Source: a virus
Direction: 5' to 3' (one strand)
Virus record (IMG/VR): IMGVR_UViG_3300025425_000029
Span: 1-51,825 of that record
Length of the DNA stretch: 51,825 bases
The position numbers were made by a program, and so were the translations under genes. Positions 3,221-29,264 of the stretch are shown here, piece by piece (positions within the stretch are counted from its first letter, which is position 1; each line of letters starts with the position of its first letter). The notes under the pieces were generated by a model. It was not told where the DNA came from. It worked only from the letters and a program-made list of their open reading frames with translations, and ran no database searches.

Positions 3221-4380
3221 TGAGAATTAACTTTATTGGTAAGTTTTACGATAACCACTCTCTAAGCATTGTTAATAGAAATTTAGTGCTAGAGCTAGCA
3301 AAGATAGCATCGGTTACTATTGTAGCTTTAGACAGTTTTAATCCAGATGCTAAGATACCTAAAGATACAGTAGCTATACTTAAAGAGTTAGAAAAAGTAG
3401 AGTATGAAGCAATTCCTGACGTTGAAATTAGGCATAGCTACCCTCCTATTTGGAAATGGCCGCAACATAAAGAAACTAAAGTTATATACATCCAACCTTG
3501 GGAATACCCTAAAGTACCTTTTGAATGGCAGTATAAATTTGAAACTTTTGCAGACGGCTTAATTGTACCAAGTAATTATATTAAAACCATTTTTGAAAAT
3601 GGAGGGTTAAATCCCTATAAAATAGAAGTAGCTCCAAACGGAATCAATACTAACATATTCAACAATAAAAAAGGCGGTGACGTTTCAAAATTTGGTATTG
3701 ATAAAGATAAATTCAACTTTGTGTATGTTGGTAACTCACAATGGAGAAAAGGTTTGGAGATACTATTAAATCAGTGGCCTAGATGTTTTAAAAAAGCAGA
3801 CAATGCTAGGTTAATTATCAAAGATAGCCCAAGCATCTACGGTAAAACTAATCTGCTAAGTGAACTATTAAAAATACAACATATTACAGGTTGTGCAGAA
3901 ATTATATATATTGATGATAATCTATCAGATATAGAAATGGCTGATATATATAAAGCTTCTAAAGTTGTAGTACATCCTTATAGAGCAGAAGGGTTTGGTA
4001 TGCATATACAAGAAGCAATGGCTTGTGGGAATGTACCTATCGTGTCTGCAAATGGCCCTACAGAAGACTTTATTCCTAAGGATGTAGGTTTGAGAATTAA
4101 CGTAACCCCACAAGCGGTAGACATTACAGATAGAGATATCTTTGCTACTAAAGCAGGGGATGCAATGTCTTTAATGAGCTCACATACCTTTATAAATGAG
4201 CCTGATGCGGGTCAGTTTGGTAATTTAATGGCTGCTTTATACCATGACCATAACTTTAAAAATAGTAGTGATAGGGTTAAGAGTATGGTATTTGGTAATA
4301 CTTGGGAGACTATAGCTACACAAATTCTTAGTTTTACTCAAAATATTAATAGTAGTGATAAAGTAGCGAGGAACGTATAA
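3220..4380 (+). CDS. Glycosyltransferase family 4/1-like protein
   Basis: GT-B fold transferase of about 386 residues. The C-terminal half has the family hallmarks: VAPNGINTNIFN at the domain linker, FVYVGNSQWRKGLEIL at the start of the nucleotide-sugar domain, and VVHPYRAEGFGMHIQEAMA, which holds the EGFG and E-x7-E donor-binding signature of GT4 enzymes. No signal peptide is seen. It follows the GT2-like gene with a one-base overlap and is the last gene of the sugar cassette. The reaction is transfer from an activated sugar, but neither sugar nor acceptor can be named. Confidence 0.8.
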   Translation: MRINFIGKFYDNHSLSIVNRNLVLELAKIASVTIVALDSFNPDAKIPKDTVAILKELEKVEYEAIPDVEIRHSYPPIWKWPQHKETKVIYIQPWEYPKVPFEWQYKFETFADGLIVPSNYIKTIFENGGLNPYKIEVAPNGINTNIFNNKKGGDVSKFGIDKDKFNFVYVGNSQWRKGLEILLNQWPRCFKKADNARLIIKDSPSIYGKTNLLSELLKIQHITGCAEIIYIDDNLSDIEMADIYKASKVVVHPYRAEGFGMHIQEAMACGNVPIVSANGPTEDFIPKDVGLRINVTPQAVDITDRDIFATKAGDAMSLMSSHTFINEPDAGQFGNLMAALYHDHNFKNSSDRVKSMVFGNTWETIATQILSFTQNINSSDKVARNV

Positions 4381-4445
4381 TGTTTACACCATCATCTTAT
4401 ATATCAGAAACAGAGGTCCGAGAGTGGGCTAAGATCAATGAATGA
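4380..4445 (+). CDS. Possible 21-residue coupled small ORF
   Basis: A 21-codon ORF starts at a TAATG overlap with the glycosyltransferase stop and ends by overlapping the start of the PC4-like gene. GAGGA lies about eight bases upstream of its ATG. Its peptide contains SETEVREWAKIN. No function is recognised; it may be a real micro-protein or only a leader that couples translation of the sugar cassette to the PC4-like gene. Support is limited to the ribosome-binding site and the two overlaps. Confidence 0.35.
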   Translation: MFTPSSYISETEVREWAKINE

Positions 4446-4710
4446 CGATATTGATTTTGGTTGCGCTTTCCATAAGAAAAATGGAAATGCAGTAAAAGTA
4501 ACAGTCAACACCTTTAGGGGTGTTGACTATTTGCATATTAGAGAGTATATGTTAGACGGAGATACAGGAAAATGGGTTCCGACAAAGTCGGGTTTCTCAA
4601 TGCCCCCTGATGAAGTCTCCTCTTTATTACCTCTGTTAGAAGATGTAGCTGAATACGCTGCTTTAAAGTATCAGTGGGATAATCAATTAGAATTGGATTT
4701 GGAAGAATAA
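4438..4710 (+). CDS. PC4/YdbC-like ssDNA-binding protein
   Basis: The 90-residue protein fits the transcriptional coactivator p15 (PC4) fold, a small beta-sheet plus helix that binds single-stranded DNA as a dimer. Seen: strand VKVTVNTFRG, the family core VDYLHIREYM, a KWVPTKSGFSM segment matching the usual PTkKGisL block, and a C-terminal amphipathic helix with LLPLLEDVAEYAAL. The acidic tail (LELDLEE) is also seen in several ssDNA-binding proteins. In phages such proteins may act in transcription switching, replication or recombination; which applies here is unknown. It has a one-base overlap with the following HTH gene. Confidence 0.7.
   Translation: MNDDIDFGCAFHKKNGNAVKVTVNTFRGVDYLHIREYMLDGDTGKWVPTKSGFSMPPDEVSSLLPLLEDVAEYAALKYQWDNQLELDLEE
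4503..4528 (+). other. Perfect 10-bp hairpin inside the PC4-like gene
   Basis: AGTCAACACC (4503-4512) pairs perfectly with GGTGTTGACT (4519-4528) around a six-base loop. It lies in the first third of the coding sequence and is not followed by a T-run, so it is not a simple terminator. It may be an mRNA processing or stability element. Confidence 0.55.
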
Positions 4711-12303: not shown

Positions 12304-15300
12304 ATGGCAGAAGTATGTTTTGTATTTGCTAGCGCATTAGAATCTAGACCACAGAGAATAATTGACAAATATCTTAAGGATGTACCTTATGATGTTAAAT
12401 ACTTGTGTTCTGGAGAAAAAGAGAAAATCCTAAAGAAAGATGTAGATCTTGACTTAGATGAGCTAGTAGGTTATAGAATTGTTGCACCTATAGGTGGAGA
12501 AGCATTAAAGTACGCAACGGGTATTACGGGTATTCAAAAGTATAATGGTATTTATGTTGAGAAGAAGTACCTTCCAATTATGCACCCTAATATTGTACTT
12601 ATTAAACCACAATTAGAAGACGATATTAAAAGAGCGTTTAATCAGATTCCCCGTATTCTAAGCGGCGAAGAGATGAATAAATCTCATGAAAAAGATTACT
12701 GCTTTATTGAGACACAAGTAGACTTCGAGAAATACCGTGTAGAAGTTGAAATGGCTTCAGTTATTGTTGCTGATATTGAGACAACAAGTGTGTCTCCCTA
12801 TACAGGTACCATTCTAGGTATTGCTGTATCAACCAAGCCTCACCAAGGTATTTATTATAGTATTGATGTAGTTCTAGCCAATAAAGAGTGGTTTCATAGA
12901 ATGTTCAAGACTAAGAAAGTAGTATTTCACAACGCTAAATTCGATATTTCATATATGATGTATGAGTTAGATTTCGAGTTCCCAGACTTTGAAGATACTA
13001 TGTTACTGCACTACTGCTTAGAGGAGTCTGTAGGTACTCACGGTCTTAAGCCTCTAGCTATGCGTTTTACTGATCTAGGTGACTATGAAAAAGACCTAGG
13101 TGACTATAAGAAAACATGGGCCAGAACTAATAAAGTCAAGCTTGCTGACTTTAATTACGGAATGCTGCCTAGCGATATCCTAGCACCTTATGCTTGCTTA
13201 ACTCATGATAGTAAAGTTATTATGGCTGACGGTAGTAAAAAAACTTTAGGGCAACTAGTTAGAAGTAAATCTACAGAGCTAGTACGTAGCTATAATCATA
13301 AACTAGATAAATGGGAGAATAAACCTATTAATGGGTGGTATTCAATAAGAGATAAAAATGTTGAATGGTTTAAAGTAGCTACCACAACTACCTCTAAAAA
13401 TAGCAGATGGGGTACGTATAATGGACCTGTGTTTACTAATGATCATAGAGTATCTACTAATAACGGATACAAACAAATACAAAATTTAGATAAAAAAAGC
13501 GATAGAATCCAAGTTAATGATTATACGTTTACTTACGATCAAAAACAAATTTTATTAGGCTCTTTATTAGGGGATGGAACTTTATCAAGTAGAAACTCTG
13601 TAGGTGCCGGTTTTGTATTCTCACAAGCAGATAAAAGATCTTTGTATTTTAGTCTGAAAGAAAAAGCTTTCGCAAATTATATAAATAATGTCGTATACGA
13701 TGCAGATAAAGAGTTACATACTTTTTATACTAAATACACAGAACAGTTTACTGACTTAAACAAATCAATAACTTGGAGACCTACATCGACTGATAAAAAA
13801 CCTTTTTTATCCGATAAATTCTTACATACTATTGATTGGTTAGCCTTAGCTGTGTGGTATTTTGATGATGGTAACAATGCCGATAATGCTTCATATAATA
13901 TGGGCAAACGTATCAGAATATGGTCTACGACAGTGTCGGTAGAAGAACAGAACAATCTTATAAAGTATTTACAAGAACGTTTTTCTATTAAAGCTCATTA
14001 TTTTGATGATGGAAACAACCAGTTCTTTGTAATTGAGAACTATGATCTATTTTTCAGAAATATAGCACAATACGCAACACCAGACTTGATGTATAAAATA
14101 CCTAGTAAGTATCATAAGCTAGTAAACTCTTATAAGTATGATTATTTACAGGCTGAACCTTATTTTGCTGAAATAGTTGAGGTAGTTGAATGGTCAACTA
14201 CTAGTAGAAAAGGTTATAAAACTAAATGGTGTATTGATGTAGAAAATAATCATAACTTTTTAACAGATGTAGGATTAGTACACAACTGTAAAGACGGCGA
14301 TGCTACTTTTCAGCTATTCAGTAAGTTTATGCCTTTAGTAGAGCGTAGTCCTGAATTTAGTAAGCTATACAGCACACTACTAAAGCCTGGTTCCTATGCT
14401 CTTCGCGCTCTTGAGCGTAATGGAGGACCAATTAACCGTGAGCAAGTAGAATGGTTATCAGAGCAGTACCGTATTGATATCGAAGAGTGTCTTGCAGAAA
14501 TTAGTCTTAATCCGCATGTTCAGCGTTTTGAGCGTATACATGGTAAGTCTTTTAATCCTAACTCTACAATGCAACTTAGAGAAGTATTCTTTACAATTAT
14601 GGGCTTGAAGCCTTCAAAAAAGACTGAGACAGGTGCTTGGTCTGTTGATAAAGAAGTTCTTAAAGCTTTAGAGAACCCTTTGTCAGAGGCAGTATTAGAC
14701 CTACGAGAAAAGTCAAAGATGTCTGGTACTTATATTAGTAACATCTTAAAAGGTTTAGACAATGATGGACGTCTTCGTAGTGGTTTTAACATTCACGGAA
14801 CTACTTCTGGTCGTCTAAGCTCTAGTGGTAATCTTAACTATCAGAATATCCCAAGAGATAATAAAGATATTAAGAAACTATTTAAAGCTCGTCCAGGGTA
14901 TAAGATTGTACAATGTGACCTTGGTACAGCGGAGGTATATTATGCTGCTGTACTAAGTGAAGATAAATTCCTACAACAAGCGTTTGTTGATAGGCTAGAC
15001 TTCCACTCATACGTCGCAAAACAGATGTTTAATCTAGACTGCGAAGTACACGAAGTTAAAAAACTATACCCTAATCAGAGACAATGGGCAAAAGCTATTA
15101 CCTTTGGTATTATGTATCAAGCTGGTCCTGCTAAGATTGCAGAAACAGTAAATAAAGATGCTAAACCTGGTGAAGGTATTACAGCAGCGCAGGCTAAGCA
15201 GTTTATTGCTAAGTACTTTAAAGAAGCTAATATGCTTAAAAAGTATATTGATAAGTCTAACTCACAAATCGAAAACTATGCTTATATCTATGCGTTCTTT

Positions 15301-15666
15301 GGTAGAAAGCGTAGACTCCCAGAAGCTAAAGCTCCTAATCCAGGTGTTGCAAAGCATGCTATTCGATCAGGAGTTAACTTCTTAGTTCAATCAGTAGCTT
15401 CTGATGTTAACATCTTTGGTTTAATTGATCTAGTAGATTGGATTGAGGAAAACAACCTAGAGAATGACATTCTACCTTTCACAGTAGTTCATGACTCAAT
15501 TGTATCAGAAGTAAGAGAAGACTTAGTGCCTATGTACATCAAAAATACTAAGGCAATGATCCAAAAAGATAGAGGTTTATCTATTCCAGGGTGCCCTATC
15601 AACGTAGATTTTGAGATTGGTGATAGTTGGGGCGACCTAACAGACGAAAGCGATTACTTTGCGTAA
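12304..15666 (+). CDS. polA: Family A DNA polymerase (Pol I) with intein
   Basis: Replicative polymerase with 3'-5' proofreading. The exonuclease domain has Exo I VADIETT (Asp157, Glu159), Exo II VVFHNAKFDISY and an Exo III motif split by an intein: Tyr296 lies before it and Asp664 after it, giving YACKD when joined. The polymerase domain shows motif A QCDLGTAE (Asp872), motif B KAITFGIMYQ (Lys930, Phe934) and motif C VVHDSIVSE (Asp1064). The precursor is 1120 residues; removing residues 298-661 leaves 756, normal for phage Pol I without a 5'-3' exonuclease, which is encoded separately at 28419. Ribosome site AAGGAA, start ATG at 12304. It overlaps the next gene by 8 bases. Confidence 0.95.
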   Translation: MAEVCFVFASALESRPQRIIDKYLKDVPYDVKYLCSGEKEKILKKDVDLDLDELVGYRIVAPIGGEALKYATGITGIQKYNGIYVEKKYLPIMHPNIVLIKPQLEDDIKRAFNQIPRILSGEEMNKSHEKDYCFIETQVDFEKYRVEVEMASVIVADIETTSVSPYTGTILGIAVSTKPHQGIYYSIDVVLANKEWFHRMFKTKKVVFHNAKFDISYMMYELDFEFPDFEDTMLLHYCLEESVGTHGLKPLAMRFTDLGDYEKDLGDYKKTWARTNKVKLADFNYGMLPSDILAPYACLTHDSKVIMADGSKKTLGQLVRSKSTELVRSYNHKLDKWENKPINGWYSIRDKNVEWFKVATTTTSKNSRWGTYNGPVFTNDHRVSTNNGYKQIQNLDKKSDRIQVNDYTFTYDQKQILLGSLLGDGTLSSRNSVGAGFVFSQADKRSLYFSLKEKAFANYINNVVYDADKELHTFYTKYTEQFTDLNKSITWRPTSTDKKPFLSDKFLHTIDWLALAVWYFDDGNNADNASYNMGKRIRIWSTTVSVEEQNNLIKYLQERFSIKAHYFDDGNNQFFVIENYDLFFRNIAQYATPDLMYKIPSKYHKLVNSYKYDYLQAEPYFAEIVEVVEWSTTSRKGYKTKWCIDVENNHNFLTDVGLVHNCKDGDATFQLFSKFMPLVERSPEFSKLYSTLLKPGSYALRALERNGGPINREQVEWLSEQYRIDIEECLAEISLNPHVQRFERIHGKSFNPNSTMQLREVFFTIMGLKPSKKTETGAWSVDKEVLKALENPLSEAVLDLREKSKMSGTYISNILKGLDNDGRLRSGFNIHGTTSGRLSSSGNLNYQNIPRDNKDIKKLFKARPGYKIVQCDLGTAEVYYAAVLSEDKFLQQAFVDRLDFHSYVAKQMFNLDCEVHEVKKLYPNQRQWAKAITFGIMYQAGPAKIAETVNKDAKPGEGITAAQAKQFIAKYFKEANMLKKYIDKSNSQIENYAYIYAFFGRKRRLPEAKAPNPGVAKHAIRSGVNFLVQSVASDVNIFGLIDLVDWIEENNLENDILPFTVVHDSIVSEVREDLVPMYIKNTKAMIQKDRGLSIPGCPINVDFEIGDSWGDLTDESDYFA
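13195..14286 (+). mobile_element. Intein with LAGLIDADG homing endonuclease in Pol I
   Basis: A 364-residue self-splicing insert in the polymerase. It begins with Cys1 (CLTHDSKVIMADGSKK, block A), has the block B pattern in VFTNDHRVSTNNGYKQ, two LAGLIDADG motifs (LLGSLLGDGTL and LALAVWYFDDGN), block F with WCIDVENNHNFL, and ends VHN followed by Cys662 as the +1 residue. All four splice-site residues (Cys1, block B histidine, terminal His-Asn, +1 Cys) are present, so it should splice. Its arginine codons are mostly AGA, while the flanking polymerase prefers CGT or CGN, a sign of later arrival. The two LAGLIDADG acidic residues look intact, so endonuclease activity is plausible. Confidence 0.93.
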
Positions 15667-21440: not shown

Positions 21441-23266
21441 GTGATATTCTAATTAAACGGTTAACATTCGATAATATGTATTCTTATGGTGCTGCTAATG
21501 AGATGATTCTAGATGCTAGCACAATAACTCAGCTTCGTGCTATTAATGGTTATGGTAAGACCTCTATTGCTCTTATCTTACAAGAAATTCTATTTAATAA
21601 AAACTTTCGTAATGTAAAGAAAGGTGATATTCTTAATAGGGTTAATGGTTCTAAAACATGGAGCGGTAAACTAGAGTTCTTAGTTAGAGGTGTAGAATAC
21701 TCAATTGCTGTAACTAGAACAGGTGCTGCTACTAAAGTTAAATTGATAGAAGCTGGTAAAGATATATCTGAGCATAAAGTAATTGATACTTACAAGAAAG
21801 TTCACGACATTCTAGGTATGAACTTTGATACTTTCTCCCAGCTTACTTACCAATCGTCAACTGATTTACTAGACTTCCTAAAAGCGACTGACGCAAATCG
21901 TAAGAAGTTTTTAATTAAGCTGTTTAATCTAGAAAAGTACACTGATATCGGTGATCGTATTAAGCTAATTGCAAGTGCGACTGATAAAGAAATGGGCGTC
22001 TTACAAACAGAAGCTAATACTGTTGCTTCTTTTTTAAATTCAGTAAGTATCACAGATATGCAATTTGAGGTTGTAGAACCTGAGGTAGACGCAGAATTAA
22101 GTGTTAGACGTGCTCAATTATTATCAGAACTTAAAAATATTAACGATACTTGCTTACGTATTGATAAAAACAACATGGCTATGCAAGAAAGAGACGACCT
22201 TCGTTTCGACCCAGGAATGACTAAGCCTACTCCTTTTGAGTTTATGGAACAGATGCAAGCTCTGCGTTTTAACCTAACAAGTCTAGCAGGTAACGTTAAT
22301 AAGTATAAAACCGAAAAGGTTAGTATAAAAATTAGAGATACTTGCTCTTCTTGCGGACAAGCTATTGATAATACACATCTCAGTAAAATGCGAGATGAGT
22401 TAGATACTAAGATCTTTGATACAGAAGAGCTTATTAATACAGAAGCAGAAAGATACAAAGTATGGGAGCAGCAATTTAACGAGATAAAGATAGAAGAAAA
22501 AGCATATAATATAAACGATACTGCTATAAAGCGTTTTGAACAATTATCTCAAGTTATTGATGAGTCAATACCAACTGATTATCCTAACGCTACAGAGATA
22601 GAAGCAGAATCAAAACAGCTTGCTGCACAGATTAAAACACAAAACGAACTTAGAAAATCAGCAGTTACGTTTAATAAGGATGTAAGTGCTCATAACTCAA
22701 AACGCGAAGCACTAATTGAGCAAAAAAGTGAATTTACAATTAGACAAAATAGTATAGCAAATGATATACTTATTAAATCGGGTCTAATAAATTCTGACAA
22801 TACTCTGAAAAAAGCATTCAGTGCTTCTGGTATCGTAGCCTTTAAATTAGAGAATTTGACGAAAGAGCTTGAAACTACTATTAATTACTATTTGGCAATC
22901 ATGTCAGACGGTCAATTTCAAGTTGAGTTCACGCTAACTAACGAAAAACTCAACATCTTCATTATCAACAATGGTTACAAAAGCCCTGTTGAAACAGTTT
23001 CTGGCGGAGAATTTAGCCGAATCCAAATTTCCATTCTTTTAGCGATACGTAAATTGCTCTCTAAACTAGGGGGCAGTAGTATAAATCTGTTGTTCTTAGA
23101 CGAAATAACAGGTGTGCTAGATGCGGAAGGAAAAGAAAAGTTAATTGAAGTATTGCTTCAAGAGACGGATCTTAACGTGTTTTTAATCACTCACGAATTT
23201 AATCATCCTCTAGTTGATAAGATAGAGATAATTAAAGAAAATAACATCAGCAGTATTGCCCGCTGA
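21437..23266 (+). CDS. SbcC/gp46-like SMC-type ATPase
   Basis: Partner of the SbcD-like nuclease. The N-terminal ATPase half has a Walker A variant in RAINGYGKTSIAL, the centre is coiled coil with a zinc-hook CxxC (Cys303, Cys306 in RDTCSSCGQAI), and the C-terminal half has the ABC signature TVSGGEFSRIQISIL, Walker B LLFLDEITGVLDAEG and the switch segment FLITHEFNHP. At 609 residues it is short like T4 gp46 and unlike long bacterial SbcC, so the coiled coil is short. Acts in double-strand end processing. Confidence 0.9.
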   Translation: MSDILIKRLTFDNMYSYGAANEMILDASTITQLRAINGYGKTSIALILQEILFNKNFRNVKKGDILNRVNGSKTWSGKLEFLVRGVEYSIAVTRTGAATKVKLIEAGKDISEHKVIDTYKKVHDILGMNFDTFSQLTYQSSTDLLDFLKATDANRKKFLIKLFNLEKYTDIGDRIKLIASATDKEMGVLQTEANTVASFLNSVSITDMQFEVVEPEVDAELSVRRAQLLSELKNINDTCLRIDKNNMAMQERDDLRFDPGMTKPTPFEFMEQMQALRFNLTSLAGNVNKYKTEKVSIKIRDTCSSCGQAIDNTHLSKMRDELDTKIFDTEELINTEAERYKVWEQQFNEIKIEEKAYNINDTAIKRFEQLSQVIDESIPTDYPNATEIEAESKQLAAQIKTQNELRKSAVTFNKDVSAHNSKREALIEQKSEFTIRQNSIANDILIKSGLINSDNTLKKAFSASGIVAFKLENLTKELETTINYYLAIMSDGQFQVEFTLTNEKLNIFIINNGYKSPVETVSGGEFSRIQISILLAIRKLLSKLGGSSINLLFLDEITGVLDAEGKEKLIEVLLQETDLNVFLITHEFNHPLVDKIEIIKENNISSIAR

Positions 23267-23305
23267 GGCCGGTAATACTTCATTTTATGCGTAAAGGAGC
23301 TATAT

Positions 23306-25432
23306 ATGCTAACAATTGGAAAAAGTCCAATTCATTTTAAGTTCAAAAAGGACTTTAAGAGTTCATTTTTGAAACAAGAAGTACACTGGGGGTTCGGTGG
23401 TCTTTCTGCGTTTACTTATTACAGAACCTATTCCCGTAAAAAAGAAAATGGTAAGATGGAAAACTGGAACGATACTGTCGTTCGAGTTGTAGAAGGTATG
23501 TTTTCTATTCTAAAAACTCATGCTATTACATCTGAACATACATGGGATGAAAAACGTGCACACAAACTTGCAGAAGAGTGTGCTCAGCGGCTATTTGAAT
23601 TCAAATGGACACCTCCGGGTCGTGGTCTATGGATGATGGGAACTCCGTTTGTTCACGAAAAGGGTGGAGCGGCTCTAAATAACTGCGGATTCGTATCTAC
23701 CGAAGATATTGATGCAGAAATGTCTAAACCATTCGCGTTTCTCATGGATATGAGTATGGTGGGTGTAGGCGTAGGTTTCGACACTAAAGGTGCAGGTAAG
23801 ATTGCTTCTTGTATCCCAGAAGGCGATATCGAAGTTATCACTGTTGAAGATTCTCGTGAAGGTTGGGTAGAGCTAATTTCTTGCCTAATTGATTCGTATT
23901 TAGAAGAAGGTTCTAACCCTGTTGGACACGATACTTCTTTAGTACGTGGTTATGGTGAGCCTATTGTAGGTTTTGGTGGCGTAGCTTCTGGTCCCGAACC
24001 TCTAATTCAGGGTTTTAATGGTATTAAAGCTATCCTAGAGATTCGTGCTCTATCAGCTAGTCCATTACTTACTTCCGTAGATATTACAGATATTATGAAT
24101 ATCATCGGTAAAGTAGTAGTTGCAGGTAATGTTCGTCGTACCGCAGAGATCGCATTTGGGGAACCAGATGATTACGAATTTGCTAATATGAAGAACTGGA
24201 AAGACTTTGGTGTAGAAACTGGTAGTGCCGCACCACCTGAGCTTGCAGCAATTAATAAACAAGACTTCGACGATTATAACGCCTTTAAGCGTCAGTCTGA
24301 AATCGCTAAAAAGTATGCTGATTATGATTGGTCTTACAAGTTTGGTGGATGGCGCTGGGCTAGTAACAATAGTATCTTTGCTAAGTTAGGTATGGATTAT
24401 ACTAAAGTATCTGAAAGTGTAGCTACTAACGGTGAACCAGGTTTTGCATGGTTAGAAAATATGCAAGCTTATAGTCGTATGAAAGACCCACCAGACCATA
24501 AAGACTATCGTGTTCGTGGAGGTAATCCATGTTTAGAACAGTCTCTTGAGCCTTATGAGCTATGCTGCCTTGTAGAGACTTTCCCAGCAGTACACGATGA
24601 TTACTGGGACTACCAGAGAACTCTAAAATTTGCCTATCTCTATGCAAAAACTGTCACTCTTATGCCTACGCATTGGAGAGATACGAATGATGTTATTAAA
24701 CGTAATCGTAGAATTGGTACATCGCAAAGCGGTATCCAGGACGCTATGCTAAAGTTTGGTCGTAGACGTTATCTTACTGAGTTCTGTGATAGAGCCTATA
24801 GCTATATCTCATACCTAGACCAAAAGTACTCGGAATGGATGGGAGTACCTCTATCAATCAAAAGAACTAGTGTAAAACCTTCAGGAACAGTATCTCTAGT
24901 AGCTGGCTCTTTACCAGGTATTCACTATGCTGAATCTGAGTCTTACTATAGATTAGTCAGAGTAGCAAGTAATAGTGCTCTAATACCTATCCTACAAGAA
25001 TCAGGATACCGTATTGAGGAAGCTGCAAGTGATCCTATTAGAACGGCAGTTATTTACTTCCCAGTACTTCACCCGGTAGGTACAATCTCTAAGAAAGATG
25101 TGTCTATTTGGGAACAGTTTGCTAACGCAGCTGATATGCAGTACTATTGGGCAGATAACCAAGTATCTATTACTATCACTTTCAACGAGCATGAAAAAAG
25201 CCAAATTGCAAGAGCACTTAGCTGTTACGATACTAGGCTAAAAGGTGTATCACTACTTCCTATTAGTGAGCATGGATACGTTCAAGCACCTTATACGCCT
25301 GCACCAAGAGAAGAAATTGAAGCCTATGCAGCAACTCTATCTCCTCTTAACTTTGCAGCGTTAAGTGATCTAGAAGAAGGTGAAGATGCAGACGCTAATA
25401 AGTTCTGTGACTCTGATGGATGCGTAATATAA
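23306..25432 (+). CDS. Class II (adenosylcobalamin) ribonucleotide reductase, monomeric type
   Basis: Reduces ribonucleotides to deoxyribonucleotides using coenzyme B12. The length (708 residues) and the order match the monomeric RTPR class: WTPPGRGLWMMGTP, the first redox cysteine in NNCGFVST, a VAGNVRRTAE strand, the radical-site NPCLEQSLEP (Asn407, Cys409, Glu411), KPSGTVSLVAGSLPGIHYAE, and a C-terminal redox CDSDGC pair. It needs no small subunit or oxygen. AAGGAG precedes ATG at 23306. It starts the nucleotide-metabolism block and its end overlaps the DUF1289 gene by 13 bases. B12 must come from the host, which suggests a host able to make or import it. Confidence 0.95.
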   Translation: MLTIGKSPIHFKFKKDFKSSFLKQEVHWGFGGLSAFTYYRTYSRKKENGKMENWNDTVVRVVEGMFSILKTHAITSEHTWDEKRAHKLAEECAQRLFEFKWTPPGRGLWMMGTPFVHEKGGAALNNCGFVSTEDIDAEMSKPFAFLMDMSMVGVGVGFDTKGAGKIASCIPEGDIEVITVEDSREGWVELISCLIDSYLEEGSNPVGHDTSLVRGYGEPIVGFGGVASGPEPLIQGFNGIKAILEIRALSASPLLTSVDITDIMNIIGKVVVAGNVRRTAEIAFGEPDDYEFANMKNWKDFGVETGSAAPPELAAINKQDFDDYNAFKRQSEIAKKYADYDWSYKFGGWRWASNNSIFAKLGMDYTKVSESVATNGEPGFAWLENMQAYSRMKDPPDHKDYRVRGGNPCLEQSLEPYELCCLVETFPAVHDDYWDYQRTLKFAYLYAKTVTLMPTHWRDTNDVIKRNRRIGTSQSGIQDAMLKFGRRRYLTEFCDRAYSYISYLDQKYSEWMGVPLSIKRTSVKPSGTVSLVAGSLPGIHYAESESYYRLVRVASNSALIPILQESGYRIEEAASDPIRTAVIYFPVLHPVGTISKKDVSIWEQFANAADMQYYWADNQVSITITFNEHEKSQIARALSCYDTRLKGVSLLPISEHGYVQAPYTPAPREEIEAYAATLSPLNFAALSDLEEGEDADANKFCDSDGCVI

Positions 25433-25599
25433 AGTCTCCATGTATACAACAATGCACACTCCTTAAGGGGGTGTGCATTGGCTGTTATAGAACACAAGAT
25501 GAAATTAGAGAGTGGTTTATAGCAGATGATGATAGAAAAACTCAAATCTTAAAGGATATAGAATGCCGAAAATACTGGTTAACCTATGCTAATAACTAA
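25420..25599 (+). CDS. DUF1289-family cysteine protein
   Basis: A 59-residue ORF overlapping both neighbours. It starts MRNIKSPCIQQCTLLKGVCI and continues GCYRTQDEIREWF, the exact DUF1289 pattern (SPC-x3-C...CxGC-x-RT-x-x-EI-x-x-W), a small protein predicted to bind an iron-sulfur cluster through four cysteines (Cys8, Cys12, Cys19, Cys22). In bacteria it accompanies diverse genes; its role is unknown. A stable hairpin lies in its early codons. Next to RNR and glutaredoxin it might have a redox or cluster-related role. Confidence 0.8.
   Translation: MRNIKSPCIQQCTLLKGVCIGCYRTQDEIREWFIADDDRKTQILKDIECRKYWLTYANN
25450..25480 (+). other. 13-bp hairpin after the RNR gene
   Basis: CAATGCACACTCC (25450-25462) pairs with GGGGTGTGCATTG (25468-25480), one G-T wobble, five-base loop TTAAG. 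It sits in the DUF1289 coding sequence 18 bases after the RNR stop, with no following T-run. It might set the 3' end or stability of RNR mRNA. Confidence 0.6.
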
Positions 25600-26520
25600 A
25601 AACGTATTATCGAATAACAATAGAAGATTTGCTTATTATAAATCTCTGAACAAGATTAAAACAGAAGGAGGCTACGTAGTTAATCCTGAAGATTTAGGGG
25701 ATGGTAGCCATCAAAAAGTTATTATAACATGTGATTCACAAAAATCAGAAAAATGTTTAAATATAGTAGAAAGGGAATGGAGACAAGTAAGTAAACAAAG
25801 AGATAGAACGAACGGTAAAGATTACTGTATGTTTTGTCAAAAAACGGAAGAATTTTCTGGGAGAAATAATCCTAACAGCAAATATATTTTTGATGATTCT
25901 TTTTTCTGTAATATAGATTCACCTGAAAAAGCTTATCTATTAGGTTGGATAGCGAGCGACGGCACTATAGCAAAAAGTAGTATAACTATTGCAATAAGAG
26001 ATTACGACGTCAGTACTCTGATCGATTTACGTAATATTATATGCAACGAATTACCTATCAGAGATAAAAGTAATTTAAAATCTCTTACCATAAGCTCTAC
26101 AGAAATAGTTAAAGATGTGTTGCGTCATCTTGGTTTGAAAACCTACGGAAAAAAAGATACTGCTATACAATTTCCTACAATAAAAAAAGAATTAGAAGTT
26201 TATTTTATTAGAGGTTTTTTCGATGGTGACGGTTCTGTAAATAAACACGATAGAAGACCAAGAGTATCTATAAGTTCTAACTCAGTGAGTATCTTAAATA
26301 GCTTAAAAAGTATTATAGGGTGTGGTAATGTGTATACAAGCAATAATCAATCAGTATGGGAGGTTAACCAAGCTAAAAAAGCTTTAGAATTTTTAGCTTG
26401 GTTATACGAAGATAAGAATGTTCCTTACTTACGTAGAAAGTATGAGATTTATTTAGACCTATCTTCGTGGGTTCCTTCATTATCAGGTGCAGATTCCTAT
26501 AGAAATTTTAATTTAGGTCC
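25586..26520 (+). mobile_element. LAGLIDADG homing endonuclease inserted at the dUTPase start
   Basis: The endonuclease part is a mobile homing gene joined in frame to dUTPase. It lacks Cys1 at the start and His-Asn plus Cys/Ser/Thr at the junction, so it is not a classical intein; nor is there room for a group I intron core outside coding sequence. AGGAG at 26521-26525 with an ATA codon eight bases later (26534, where ATG would encode MNKSRKDAILPK) looks like the old dUTPase start. A second candidate is ATG at 25563 with AAAGGA before it, giving a nine-codon ORF starting MPKILVN. Confidence 0.6.
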
Positions 26521-26941
26521 AGGAGTAATTAAAATAAACAAAAGTAGGAAAGATGCAATTTTACCTAAAATATCTGATATTCACGCGTCTGGTATTGATT
26601 TACATTTAATTGATAAAGTAAAAGACTTTGGGCCAAATACTGTATTGTATACAACAGGATTAAAAGTACAACCACCTATGGGTTATTATTTTGATTTAGT
26701 TCCGAGAAGCAGTATTAGTAAAACGTCTTTTATGCTGGCTAATAGTGTAGGTATAATTGACGAAAACTACATTGGGGAAGTTATGGTAGCTTTGTATAAT
26801 TACGGTAAAGATGAAATAGATTTCCCTTCTAGGCTTGTTCAATTAGTTTTACGGAAAAAATATGCCTTTGAAGTAGTAGAGGTTGAAGACCTAGAAGAAA
26901 CAGCTCGTGGTGAGTTAGGTTTCGGTTCTACAGGAGTATAA
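25586..26941 (+). CDS. Homing endonuclease-dUTPase fusion
   Basis: One 451-codon frame holds two proteins. Residues 1-305 form a LAGLIDADG homing endonuclease: a four-cysteine finger (Cys49, Cys57, Cys81, Cys84), a NUMOD3-like SGRNNPNSKY, LAGLIDADG motif 1 (YLLGWIASDGT, 117-127) and motif 2 (YFIRGFFDGDGSV, 206-218). Residues 314-451 form a complete trimeric-type dUTPase: motif 1 ASGIDL (334-339), motif 2 PRSSISK, motif 3 NSVGIIDENYIGE with catalytic Asp392, motif 4-like SRLVQLVL and motif 5 RGELGFGSTG (441-450). dUTPase makes dUMP for ThyA and keeps dUTP out of DNA. No intein splice residues are visible. The whole frame starts in the DUF1289 gene; a free dUTPase could also start inside it. 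Confidence 0.85.
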   Translation: MLITKNVLSNNNRRFAYYKSLNKIKTEGGYVVNPEDLGDGSHQKVIITCDSQKSEKCLNIVEREWRQVSKQRDRTNGKDYCMFCQKTEEFSGRNNPNSKYIFDDSFFCNIDSPEKAYLLGWIASDGTIAKSSITIAIRDYDVSTLIDLRNIICNELPIRDKSNLKSLTISSTEIVKDVLRHLGLKTYGKKDTAIQFPTIKKELEVYFIRGFFDGDGSVNKHDRRPRVSISSNSVSILNSLKSIIGCGNVYTSNNQSVWEVNQAKKALEFLAWLYEDKNVPYLRRKYEIYLDLSSWVPSLSGADSYRNFNLGPGVIKINKSRKDAILPKISDIHASGIDLHLIDKVKDFGPNTVLYTTGLKVQPPMGYYFDLVPRSSISKTSFMLANSVGIIDENYIGEVMVALYNYGKDEIDFPSRLVQLVLRKKYAFEVVEVEDLEETARGELGFGSTGV

Positions 26942-27166
26942 ATGACAGTTATATGGAGTATGGATAACTGTACCTATTGTACTTTAGCTAAGAAGCTGAT
27001 GGTAATTAAGGGTATGCAGTTTGAAGAACGTAATATTAATAAGAAGTGGTCAAAACATGACTTGTTAAAAGAGGTACCTAATGCTAAGAAATTACCACAA
27101 ATAGTTATTGATAATATTTGTATTGGAGGTTATAATGAGTTAGTGGAGTATTTTAACTCCCATTAA
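26942..27166 (+). CDS. Glutaredoxin
   Basis: A 74-residue thioredoxin-fold protein starting on the base after the dUTPase stop. It has the CxxC active site in NCTYC (Cys10, Cys13), the cis-proline KLPQIVIDN segment and a C-terminal GGYNELVEY matching the GSH/GG motif. It would supply electrons for reduction of the RNR disulfide and so links with the class II reductase upstream. It ends 16 bases before PhoH. Confidence 0.93.
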   Translation: MTVIWSMDNCTYCTLAKKLMVIKGMQFEERNINKKWSKHDLLKEVPNAKKLPQIVIDNICIGGYNELVEYFNSH

Positions 27167-27182
27167 TTCTGAAAGGCAGTTC

Positions 27183-27920
27183 ATGTCAAGAAAAAAGCAA
27201 AATAACTATAGTAATCAAAAGCAATCAAGTACTAAAGAAGTTAAAGAGGTTAAGCTAAGAAGAGTAAGAATCGACGACCTAAACACTTTTGAACCACTTA
27301 CTGAAAACCAAAAAAGAGCTTACAGTGAGTATGATACTGATACAAATATTGTATTAGATGGTAGTGCAGGTACAGGTAAAACTTTTCTTAGTTTATACCT
27401 AGCTTTAGAAGAGGTTTTAGACCCTTCGTATAGTTATAAAAAAGTTGCAATCTTTAGATCTGCTGTTGCTACTAGAAACATTGGTTTTCTAAAAGGCGAC
27501 GACAATGAAAAAATTGCAGTCTATGAAGCTCCTTATCAGGGTATCTGTGAGGAGCTTTTTGGTATGAAAGACGCATACGAAAGTCTTAAAGAACAGGGCA
27601 ATATCGAGTTTCGTAGCACGTCGTTTAATAGAGGTATTAGCTTAGATAATACAATCTTCTATGTAGATGAGATGCAAAACCTAAGTTTCCACGAGCTAGA
27701 TACTATTCAAACAAGAATAGGTAAAAACTCTAAAATTATTTACTCAGGTGATTACACACAGACTGACTTAGAAAAACGTGATAGTGGTGGTATACTTGAA
27801 TTTCTCAAAATCATTAAAGAGATGGGTCGTTTTAGTTATACAACCTTTACTACAGATGATATTGTAAGAAGCGAGCTTGTTAAAGAGTATCTAGTTACAA
27901 AAGCTAAGCTAGGTATGTAA
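27183..27920 (+). CDS. phoH: PhoH-like ATPase
   Basis: P-loop ATPase of the PhoH family, about 245 residues. Walker A is LDGSAGTGKTFLSL near residue 59, then KVAIFRSAVATRNIGFLKGD, the Walker B FYVDEMQNLSFHELDTIQTR, and IYSGDYTQTDL as sensor. The first 40 residues are basic and polar. PhoH is common in phages, where it has been linked to phosphate stress, RNA or nucleotide metabolism; its phage role is not settled. AAAGGC precedes the ATG. It abuts the next gene with no spacing. Confidence 0.93.
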   Translation: MSRKKQNNYSNQKQSSTKEVKEVKLRRVRIDDLNTFEPLTENQKRAYSEYDTDTNIVLDGSAGTGKTFLSLYLALEEVLDPSYSYKKVAIFRSAVATRNIGFLKGDDNEKIAVYEAPYQGICEELFGMKDAYESLKEQGNIEFRSTSFNRGISLDNTIFYVDEMQNLSFHELDTIQTRIGKNSKIIYSGDYTQTDLEKRDSGGILEFLKIIKEMGRFSYTTFTTDDIVRSELVKEYLVTKAKLGM

Positions 27921-28373
27921 ATGAGTTCTGCAAGTAAACTTAAAGGCTCTGCCTATGAAGCTAAGCTTAAGGACATTCTCAACAAAGAGTTTCCCTCTAT
28001 ACAGTTTGAGCGTGTCCCTCTAAGTGGGGCAATATCGTACCTAAAAGGAGATTTATGGACTCCTCATGACACTGCTGCTTGGCCTTGGTGTATAGAGGCT
28101 AAGCACTATAAAGAAGTCAAATGGGACAATTTACTTACAGCTAAGTCATCTGATCTACATAGCTTCTGGGCCCAGACTATAAGAGAAGCAGAAGTTATGA
28201 AGAAAAGACCTTTACTTATGTTTAGGTGGAACCGTTCTAAAGATTTCGTTGCCTTTGACGATCATATACAGGTTGATTCTTATGTAGAGATTAACTCTTT
28301 TGGTAATAAATTTAAAATCGCGCTACTAGACGATTGGTTAAAGGCAGTTAAAAGTCAAACTAATCTTGCCTAA
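27921..28373 (+). CDS. PD-(D/E)XK nuclease, possible Holliday junction resolvase
   Basis: A 150-residue protein with SKLKGSAYEAKLKDILN at the start (Glu in the first helix), FERVPLSGA, then LKGDLWTP and a CIEAKHY segment, giving the D...E-x-K active site of PD-(D/E)XK nucleases such as archaeal-type resolvases. Further conserved-looking parts are SFWAQTIREAEV and RPLLMFRWN. It would cut branched DNA made during recombination and replication, matching the SbcCD and UvsW-like genes. The exact substrate is inferred from family resemblance. Confidence 0.65.
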   Translation: MSSASKLKGSAYEAKLKDILNKEFPSIQFERVPLSGAISYLKGDLWTPHDTAAWPWCIEAKHYKEVKWDNLLTAKSSDLHSFWAQTIREAEVMKKRPLLMFRWNRSKDFVAFDDHIQVDSYVEINSFGNKFKIALLDDWLKAVKSQTNLA

Positions 28374-28394
28374 TGCTTAATATTATGCTAATAT
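28366..28394 (+). promoter_or_regulatory. Promoter before the exonuclease gene
   Basis: TTGCCT (28366-28371), 17 bases, TAATAT (28389-28394), overlapping the upstream stop codon. The stretch CCTAATGCTTAAT and downstream ATTAAGTATAGAAACAAGG closely repeat the element at 5442-5485. The repeated body between and after the hexamers suggests a shared regulator or a recent duplication. Confidence 0.55.
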
Positions 28395-28418
28395 TAAGTA
28401 TAGAAACAAGGAATAACA

Positions 28419-29264
28419 ATGTCAAAAGAGTGGAATGATTTAGCAGACTTGGAACAAGCTGTTAATGACTATGCAGATTTTAATAATCTACTATTAATCG
28501 ATTCAAATAACGTAGCATATCGTTATTTACATCGTAAAAACTATGACTCTTACCAAGAGGATTATCAAAGAACATTATCTTCTTTAGCTAAATCATATAA
28601 AGCTAAAAGAACTATTGCTTGCTTTGACTTTGGTAAGAGTTACTACCGTCTAGCTATGTTAGAGGATTATAAAGGCACTCGTAAAAAGCCAGATACTCAA
28701 GAAGAGATTGATAGAGCAGAAGCTTTCTTCACTGTTTTAAATGAGCTTCCAGATACATTATACGAGGAAACTCTTAAACATAGGGGTGTAGAAGCAGACG
28801 ATTTAATTGCTTATCTAGCGATTAATCTAAAAGAAGAATACGATCATGTATGGATTGTTTCTTCTGATAAAGACTTAATTCAACTAGTTGATGATAATGT
28901 GTCTATCTTTTCTATTTTTAGCCGTAAAGAGATTACTGCTGATAGTCTATATAATGATCTAGGATTGAGTCCTTCGCAGTTTATGCTTTCTAGAATTATT
29001 GAAGGCGATAAAGGCGATAACATTATTGGTATTGAGGGTATCGGCCCTAAACGTGCCCAAGCTTTAGCTAAAGAGTATGGAACTTTTGAGAATCTAATGA
29101 GGGCTTTACCAATTCCTGGTAAGTCTAAATTTATTCAAAATCTAAATGCAGGTGTAGATAAGCTTATTGAGAACGAGAAGCTAATCAATTTACATAGCTA
29201 CCACGAGCAAGCTATTGAGGCTGGTAAGGACGAAGACGTCCTAGATATTCTGGCTGAGCTGTAA
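28419..29264 (+). CDS. 5'-3' exonuclease (FEN/T5 type)
   Basis: Flap endonuclease/5'-3' exonuclease of 281 residues. Motifs: LLLIDSNNVAYRY at the N-terminus, IACFDFGKSYYR, LKHRGVEADDLIAYLA with the metal-binding acids, WIVSSDKDLIQL, then GDKGDNIIGIEGIGPKRAQA, the helix-hairpin-helix segment that binds DNA. It removes RNA primers and flaps, the activity missing from the phage Pol I. It has its own promoter and an AAGGAATAACA site. The gap to DHFR is 131-158 bases and holds a hairpin. Confidence 0.92.
   Translation: MSKEWNDLADLEQAVNDYADFNNLLLIDSNNVAYRYLHRKNYDSYQEDYQRTLSSLAKSYKAKRTIACFDFGKSYYRLAMLEDYKGTRKKPDTQEEIDRAEAFFTVLNELPDTLYEETLKHRGVEADDLIAYLAINLKEEYDHVWIVSSDKDLIQLVDDNVSIFSIFSRKEITADSLYNDLGLSPSQFMLSRIIEGDKGDNIIGIEGIGPKRAQALAKEYGTFENLMRALPIPGKSKFIQNLNAGVDKLIENEKLINLHSYHEQAIEAGKDEDVLDILAEL

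Follow-up and report, generated by a model that had tools for sequence, protein, structure and literature searches.

A family of phage genes joins a LAGLIDADG homing endonuclease in frame to a complete dUTPase, the enzyme that keeps uracil out of DNA. We hold with high confidence that the fusion family is real, that it has a single origin and that the fused gene has been transferred between phage lineages. Its best explanation, and in our judgement a probable one, is that a homing nuclease aimed at the dUTPase gene (dut) carries its own diverged dUTPase as a rescue.

A LAGLIDADG endonuclease and a dUTPase in one open reading frame

We analyzed a 51,825-nucleotide stretch of DNA from an uncultivated virus (IMG/VR record IMGVR_UViG_3300025425_000029, positions 1 to 51,825), referred to here as the window. 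The open reading frame at 25586-26941 (+) runs from ATG to TAA and encodes 451 aa in a single frame. From N- to C-terminus its product consists of a zinc finger, a two-motif LAGLIDADG nuclease, a linker of about 20 aa and a complete dUTPase. Pfam detects LAGLIDADG_3 (9.5e-11) followed by dUTPase (5.5e-17, residues 324-450), and PHROGs detects an endonuclease family at residues 93-292 and a dUTPase family at the C-terminus. The initial annotation, made from the letters of the sequence, had described this in-frame fusion with its zinc finger, NUMOD3-like motif, two LAGLIDADG motifs and complete dUTPase; the reading frame proved exact, both Pfam domains lie in the expected order, and all the named elements were recovered, including a NUMOD3-like GRNNPNSKY and all five dUTPase motifs. 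The start of the gene overlaps the stop of a DUF1289 gene by 14 nt, and the ATG of a glutaredoxin gene directly abuts its stop. Full-length homologues rule out a private assembly artefact, and the fusion is a genuine gene. The features are as follows.

23306..25432 (+), class II ribonucleotide reductase, context (Pfam)
25420..25599 (+), DUF1289 gene, upstream edge of the dUTPase slot (Pfam)
25586..26941 (+), homing endonuclease-dUTPase fusion gene, 451 aa, with 16 further full-length homologues
25730..25837 (+), four-cysteine zinc-finger-like segment (C49, C57, C81, C84; sequence)
25910..26461 (+), LAGLIDADG endonuclease core, residues 109-292, single-chain two-motif form (Pfam, PHROGs, AlphaFold2 model)
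25931..25963 (+), LAGLIDADG motif 1, AYLLGWIASDG (116-126), catalytic Asp125, the Asp present in 17/17 fusions
26201..26233 (+), LAGLIDADG motif 2, YFIRGFFDGDG (206-216), catalytic Asp215, the Asp present in 17/17 fusions
26462..26524 (+), linker, residues 293-313, with a W.PS-like motif found in most fusions
26521..26536 (+), AGGAG...ATA string, formerly read as a lost start; a chance-level match within coding sequence
26525..26938 (+), complete trimeric-type dUTPase domain, residues 314-451 (PF00692, TIGR00576, structure 8qky at Z 15.1)
26585..26602 (+), dUTPase motif 1, ASGIDL, with G336 and D338 in 17/17 fusions
26702..26719 (+), dUTPase motif 2, PRSSIS, with RSS in 17/17 fusions
26747..26779 (+), dUTPase motif 3, VGIIDENYIGE, catalytic Asp392; the equivalent site of a plain dut is the insertion point in contig L317
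26906..26938 (+), dUTPase motif 5, RGELGFGSTGV, with R441 in 17/17 fusions
26942..27166 (+), glutaredoxin gene, downstream edge of the slot (Pfam)
28419..29264 (+), T5 D15-like flap endonuclease, used as phylogenetic yardstick (flap-endonuclease tree)

The four-cysteine finger is present in the nearest homologues and variable or absent in more distant ones, and free-standing relatives of the nuclease terminate near residue 292 in fusion numbering.

Given 38 rows of aligned relatives, AlphaFold2 modelled the fusion monomer as two confident domains (mean pLDDT 87) separated by a disordered linker (residues 301-312, pLDDT <50); the first three fusions alone had yielded a pLDDT of 38. The nuclease domain of the model matches PI-PfuI, I-Tsp061I, I-DmoI and E-DreI (Z 16-19, rmsd 2.2-3.0 over 163-177 residues), a pseudo-symmetric fold like that of I-DmoI and E-DreI, and structures of WhiA are also among its fold matches (Z about 15). 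The dUTPase domain matches dUTPases including that of phage T5 (8qky, Z 15.1). BFVD lists two further structural matches, both in large DNA viruses of eukaryotes: N267L of chlorovirus FR483 (A7J6X1, 282 aa, 38% identical over 275 columns) and a Clandestinovirus 'dUTP diphosphatase' (A0A8F8KKJ2, 386 aa, aligned over 408 columns).

The junction lacks a start codon and splicing signals

The initial annotation had pointed to AGGAG followed, eight bases on, by ATA as a lost dUTPase start. The string exists, but the pattern AGGAG-N5-9-ATA has 14 matches in the window where chance predicts 13.35, and a stronger AGGAGG stands at 25666, inside the nuclease part. Initiation at this ATA (codon 317) would yield 135 residues and not the 138-residue form that had been suggested; the Met1 of a T5-type dUTPase aligns by eye with V314 (GTA), and the ATA comes three codons later. 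There is no in-frame ATG, GTG or TTG between codons 249 and 354 of the window gene, and 9 of the 17 fusions described below have none between the end of the nuclease and dUTPase motif 1. Because start codons are absent from the junction, a separate dUTPase made from a normal start is unlikely. A single polypeptide is the simplest reading, and of the two options that had been left side by side, an enzyme that works as a fusion or one made from a non-ATG start, the codon content of the junctions favours the former over an ATA start.

The absence of intein splice residues and of intron space, also claimed at the outset, was borne out. A scan of three fusions with an intein splicing model gave no match, and the same scan found the intein of the window's polymerase. 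No extein precedes the nuclease, no C-terminal His-Asn stands at the fusion junctions, and no Rfam family scored above threshold in 23000-28500. The polymerase intein, of the LAGLIDADG type, lies in DNA polymerase A (12304-15666) and extends from about C298 to N661 (...GLVHN), with Cys as the +1 residue.

Seventeen fusions with a single origin

With a nuclease-only profile scan and a fusion-profile scan of uncultivated phage contigs, the number of distinct full-length fusions reached 17, all in such contigs (window, L006, L007, L219, L221, L222, L227, L228, L302, L303, L305, L306, L308, L310, L313, L314 and L315); near-copies of L306 (L307) and of L310 (L311, L312) were not counted separately. 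The carrier contigs span 17-201 kb, their gene neighbourhoods differ, and several fusions lie apart from recognisable nucleotide-metabolism genes. Compared in pairs, the fusions are 28-69% identical over the nuclease and 40-92% over the dUTPase, the more conserved half. Both nuclease aspartates and G336, D338, R374, S375, S376, G389, D392, Y395, G397, Q419 and R441 are invariant in 17/17. For the computable pairs, NG86 dN/dS is 0.24-0.32 in the nuclease and 0.05-0.19 in the dUTPase, rough values with synonymous change near saturation, and purifying selection appears to act on both halves.

A search of 50,697 phage records with four diverse fusions as queries gave no match that extended over 80% of a query, and the best matches in bacterial genomes were to the nuclease only, with a dUTPase in none of the flanks examined (0/80). 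Two sets of candidates were set aside. The length of phrog_135 (463 columns) hinted at earlier fused dUTPases, but a 549-aa protein of Erwinia phage PhiEaH1 has other N- and C-terminal extensions and no recognisable LAGLIDADG motifs. In some phages (Escherichia phage C130_2, Vibrio phages, KurtStettler) tblastn matches extended upstream of the dUTPase, but into separate genes of an ordinary kind. Other homing-type nucleases were seen by eye near two of the fusions (L006:587-1990 and L007:4313-5014), their types being zinc-ribbon repeats with a nuclease end and GIY-YIG-like.

The 17 fused dUTPases form one clade (support 100/99), whose sister (99/96) is the pair of unfused dUTPases of L225 and L231, each with the same kind of nuclease directly downstream as a separate gene. 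As the fused dUTPases are monophyletic, the fusion happened once, and it appears from these comparisons to be old.

In the window and 13 other carrier records, all of them contigs and not complete genomes, the fusion is the only dUTPase detected with PF00692; in the record of L313 this model missed even the fused domain itself. L222 has a second, divergent dUTPase (L222:3-395) 2.5 kb upstream of its fusion, with altered motifs 2 and 3 (SRPKL, GIIEPDY), and this copy is perhaps inactive.

The fused gene occupies dUTPase slots of two phage lineages

The window phage belongs to a large uncultivated T5-like group (SbcD, SbcC, D14-like, flap endonuclease), and the best isolate matches to its SbcC are mostly T5-like. 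We collected relatives of the window through their ribonucleotide reductase (66-81% identical). Between reductase/DUF1289 and glutaredoxin these relatives have a plain dUTPase, a MazG-like gene, other genes or nothing, and the slot is a replacement hotspot. At least three dUTPase lineages, as well as MazG-like proteins, were seen in the slots of L008, L010, L011, L016, L018, L040, L043 and others, and the L016 slot holds an HNH-like gene plus a dUTPase. DUF1289 and dUTPase form a single open frame of 190-195 aa in L011:7426-8013, L013:3036-3608, L015:8112-8699, L019:8112-8684 and L021:8112-8684; an internal ATG is present, and this frame may be a further case, in this slot, of a dUTPase fused at its N-terminus.

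A comparison with the uninterrupted dUTPases of related phages had been proposed as a way of finding the exact insertion of a nuclease upstream of the phage's own dUTPase, an insertion thought to have erased its ATG. The comparison speaks against that event: the plain dUTPases in the same slot of the relatives are only 28-35% identical to the window dUTPase, whereas the fusions of L006 and L007, from a different T5-like lineage, are 60-65% identical to it. The window dUTPase is not the resident one, and the fused gene arrived whole.

L006 and L007 also share about 53% of nuclease residues with the window, against 35-42% identity in the housekeeping proteins SbcD, SbcC, D14 and flap endonuclease. 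Their fusions, and that of L219, sit behind the flap endonuclease, which is the dut position of T5-like phages, and relatives of L006/L007 (L143, L144, L145-L149 and others) have plain dUTPases there. The plain dUTPases of the window's relatives and of the L006/L007 relatives are at most about 40% identical to the fused ones; between L007 and its relative L139, for instance, housekeeping proteins are 61-76% identical and the dUTPases 40%. Across 39 loci, fusion pairs are 19-24 points more alike in dUTPase than in flap endonuclease, and in no other pair is this excess larger than 12.8. The flap-endonuclease tree rejects a clade of the window, L006 and L007 (AU p 4e-7), whereas the dUTPase tree joins the three with full support. 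It is well supported by these trees and identities that the fused gene has moved whole between lineages, and it stands in the dUTPase slot of two T5-like lineages.

A nuclease clade associated with dut

Every fused nuclease, including that of a partial fusion in L317, falls into a single clade of the nuclease tree (24 rows, 100/99), together with the dut-adjacent nucleases of L220, L223, L225 and L231 and two without a detected dUTPase. A position fused to dut or within 80 bp of it was found for 22 of the 24 clade rows versus 0 of 39 rows outside, the rows coming in part from a search with a fusion query. A nuclease-only search agreed with this: dut linkage was seen in 10 of its 13 best contigs, and none of the 67 others has dut within 80 bp. 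Association with dut is a property of the nuclease clade, which keeps it also with unrelated dUTPases (L220, L223). Fused and dut-adjacent forms intermingle within the clade, so nuclease and dUTPase have reassorted. The dut-adjacent nuclease of L231 (2998-5190) is interrupted by a TnpB-like gene (3436-4599).

L317 has a plain dUTPase gene at 2540-2776 that includes motifs 1 and 2 and runs to '...AAEFDIEKGAG', with a stop two codons on; at this break point relatives go on with motif 3, 'VID..Y.GE'. The ATG of the L317 fusion frame (2773) overlaps the stop codon of the plain dut, and the contig ends within the dUTPase half of the fusion, placing the 3' part of the interrupted gene beyond it. The natural reading of this arrangement is that a fusion cassette has been inserted at the catalytic-aspartate codons of a plain dut, although the single contig end could also be a chimera. 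Homing endonucleases tend to target functionally critical codons (PMC2988022), and the L317 site matches this tendency.

A search for dut remnants beside the other fusions turned up only a weak match in L221 and the additional dUTPase of L222. As no interrupted dut remains in those carriers, one-for-one replacement there is deduced from their relatives. The L221 match (L221:2384-2974) is a 196-aa protein that overlaps the fusion start and has by eye the look of a decayed dUTPase; it has no Pfam match and a weak profile match (E 0.008).

Discussion

We propose that the nuclease half of the fusion would cut dut, or its close surroundings, in co-infecting phages that have an ordinary dUTPase, and that repair from the carrier would copy the fused gene into the cut phage. 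The dUTPase of the fusion, which its divergence would protect from cutting, would take over the enzymatic job and keep cellular dUTP low, making the invasion harmless to the phage. Recombination could not part the nuclease from its rescue, and loss of the nuclease would mean loss of the dUTPase. Nuclease and dUTPase activity, the target site, homing and the resistance of the carried copy are all features that we infer. The most specific version, a natural home-and-rescue gene drive in one protein, in which a nuclease aimed at the codons of the dUTPase catalytic site is joined to a cleavage-resistant dUTPase that replaces the destroyed gene and so spreads among unrelated phages, we rate at even chances. 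A point contrary to the rescue explanation is that simple homing alone would not carry the gene between distant lineages, whose flanking homology is weak; the crossing may have gone through intermediate relatives or through co-conversion where dut sequence is shared. Also contrary to it are the second dUTPase that L222 has kept and the several fusions that lie apart from nucleotide-metabolism genes.

The strongest competitor, to which we give perhaps one chance in a handful or slightly better, is passive hitch-hiking. An ordinary dut-adjacent homing endonuclease gene would have fused once and would gain from the expression and necessity of the dUTPase; its real target would lie elsewhere and the dUTPase would be no rescue copy. 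Free-standing homing endonuclease genes do often shelter near essential phage genes (PMC2988022), and some of the fusions lie outside dUTPase slots. Hitch-hiking fits less well with a nuclease clade linked to dut of different lineages whether fused or unfused, with replacement of the resident dut by the fused gene in two backgrounds, and with the L317 fusion that interrupts a plain dut.

WhiA is a LAGLIDADG-derived regulator, and its place among the fold matches, together with the stronger conservation of the dUTPase half, would suit a nuclease domain that now serves the dUTPase for DNA binding or localisation, for example by tethering it to replication sites or by regulating its own operon. 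We consider this improbable: both catalytic aspartates persist in 17/17 fusions at nuclease identities down to 28% (range 28-69%), and patchy distribution with horizontal transfer suits a selfish element better.

It is very unlikely that, as first supposed, a homing gene inserted upstream of the phage's own dUTPase and removed its ATG, leaving the enzyme to be made as a fusion or from the ATA. The fusion and the AGGAG...ATA string both exist, but the dUTPase of the resident lineage is a different one (28-35% identical), the fusion is common to 17 loci with one origin, the string is at chance level, and the junctions of 9 members are free of ATG, GTG and TTG. An unrecognised intein or intron, from which splicing would release a plain dUTPase, has almost nothing to recommend it beyond the intein in the window's DNA polymerase, which establishes that inteins occur in this phage: there is no N-extein, no C-terminal His-Asn, no match to a splicing model or intron family, and no start codon at the dUTPase boundary.

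The rescue explanation places the fusion between several known systems. Free-standing phage homing endonuclease genes (T4 seg/mob, intronless homing) resemble it in lying near nucleotide-metabolism genes, in their patchy distribution and in replacing flanking sequence locally (PMC2988022). Unlike seg and mob, the nuclease here is covalently joined to the enzyme and comes with its own diverged copy of the gene replaced. The arrangement as separate genes is seen only in L220, L223, L225 and L231, against in-frame fusion at 17 loci. LAGLIDADG inteins (PI-PfuI, the window polymerase intein) have the same nuclease fold (1dq3, Z 18.6) and likewise form one polypeptide with an essential enzyme, but the fusion has no splicing domain and undergoes no protein splicing, so that the nuclease remains N-terminal. 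The rps3-LAGLIDADG genes of fungal mitochondria are also in-frame fusions of a nuclease to a gene, according to passages of PMC7902536 that cite Gibb and Hausner 2005; as described there, rps3 encodes a mitochondrial ribosomal protein within a group I intron, an unrelated gene in an unrelated setting. The dUTPase of T5 (8qky) and those of T5-like phages have the same fold and motifs as the fused dUTPase half, but the T5 enzyme has no nuclease domain and is about 38% identical to the window dUTPase half.

In engineered Cleave-and-Rescue elements, a nuclease disrupts an essential gene and is tightly linked to a recoded, resistant copy (PMC7951863), and home-and-rescue drives, in the passages of PMC7968924 that describe them, use the same principle of nuclease plus recoded copy. 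These are engineered, with Cas9 and separate parts, whereas what we propose would be a natural protein fusion encoded by a single gene. Of the marks of a rescue element, those observed here are linkage, divergence, slot occupation and one insertion into dut. Synthetic biologists have built rescue drives, and we found no natural protein-fusion example described in the literature searched. Consistent with the initial annotation, that literature, which included few subscription journals, held no description of a homing endonuclease-dUTPase fusion; the main text of a survey of phage nuclease genes (PMC10448857) does not mention dUTPase.

The home-and-rescue reading predicts the cut site clearly. 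To spare the gene that they invade, homing endonucleases as a rule rely on an intron or intein, or else they sit beside it. If our reading is true, a nuclease joined to a complete substitute for its target gene would be a third solution beside intron or intein and adjacency, and it would go some way to account for the frequent replacement of phage dUTPase genes by unrelated versions.
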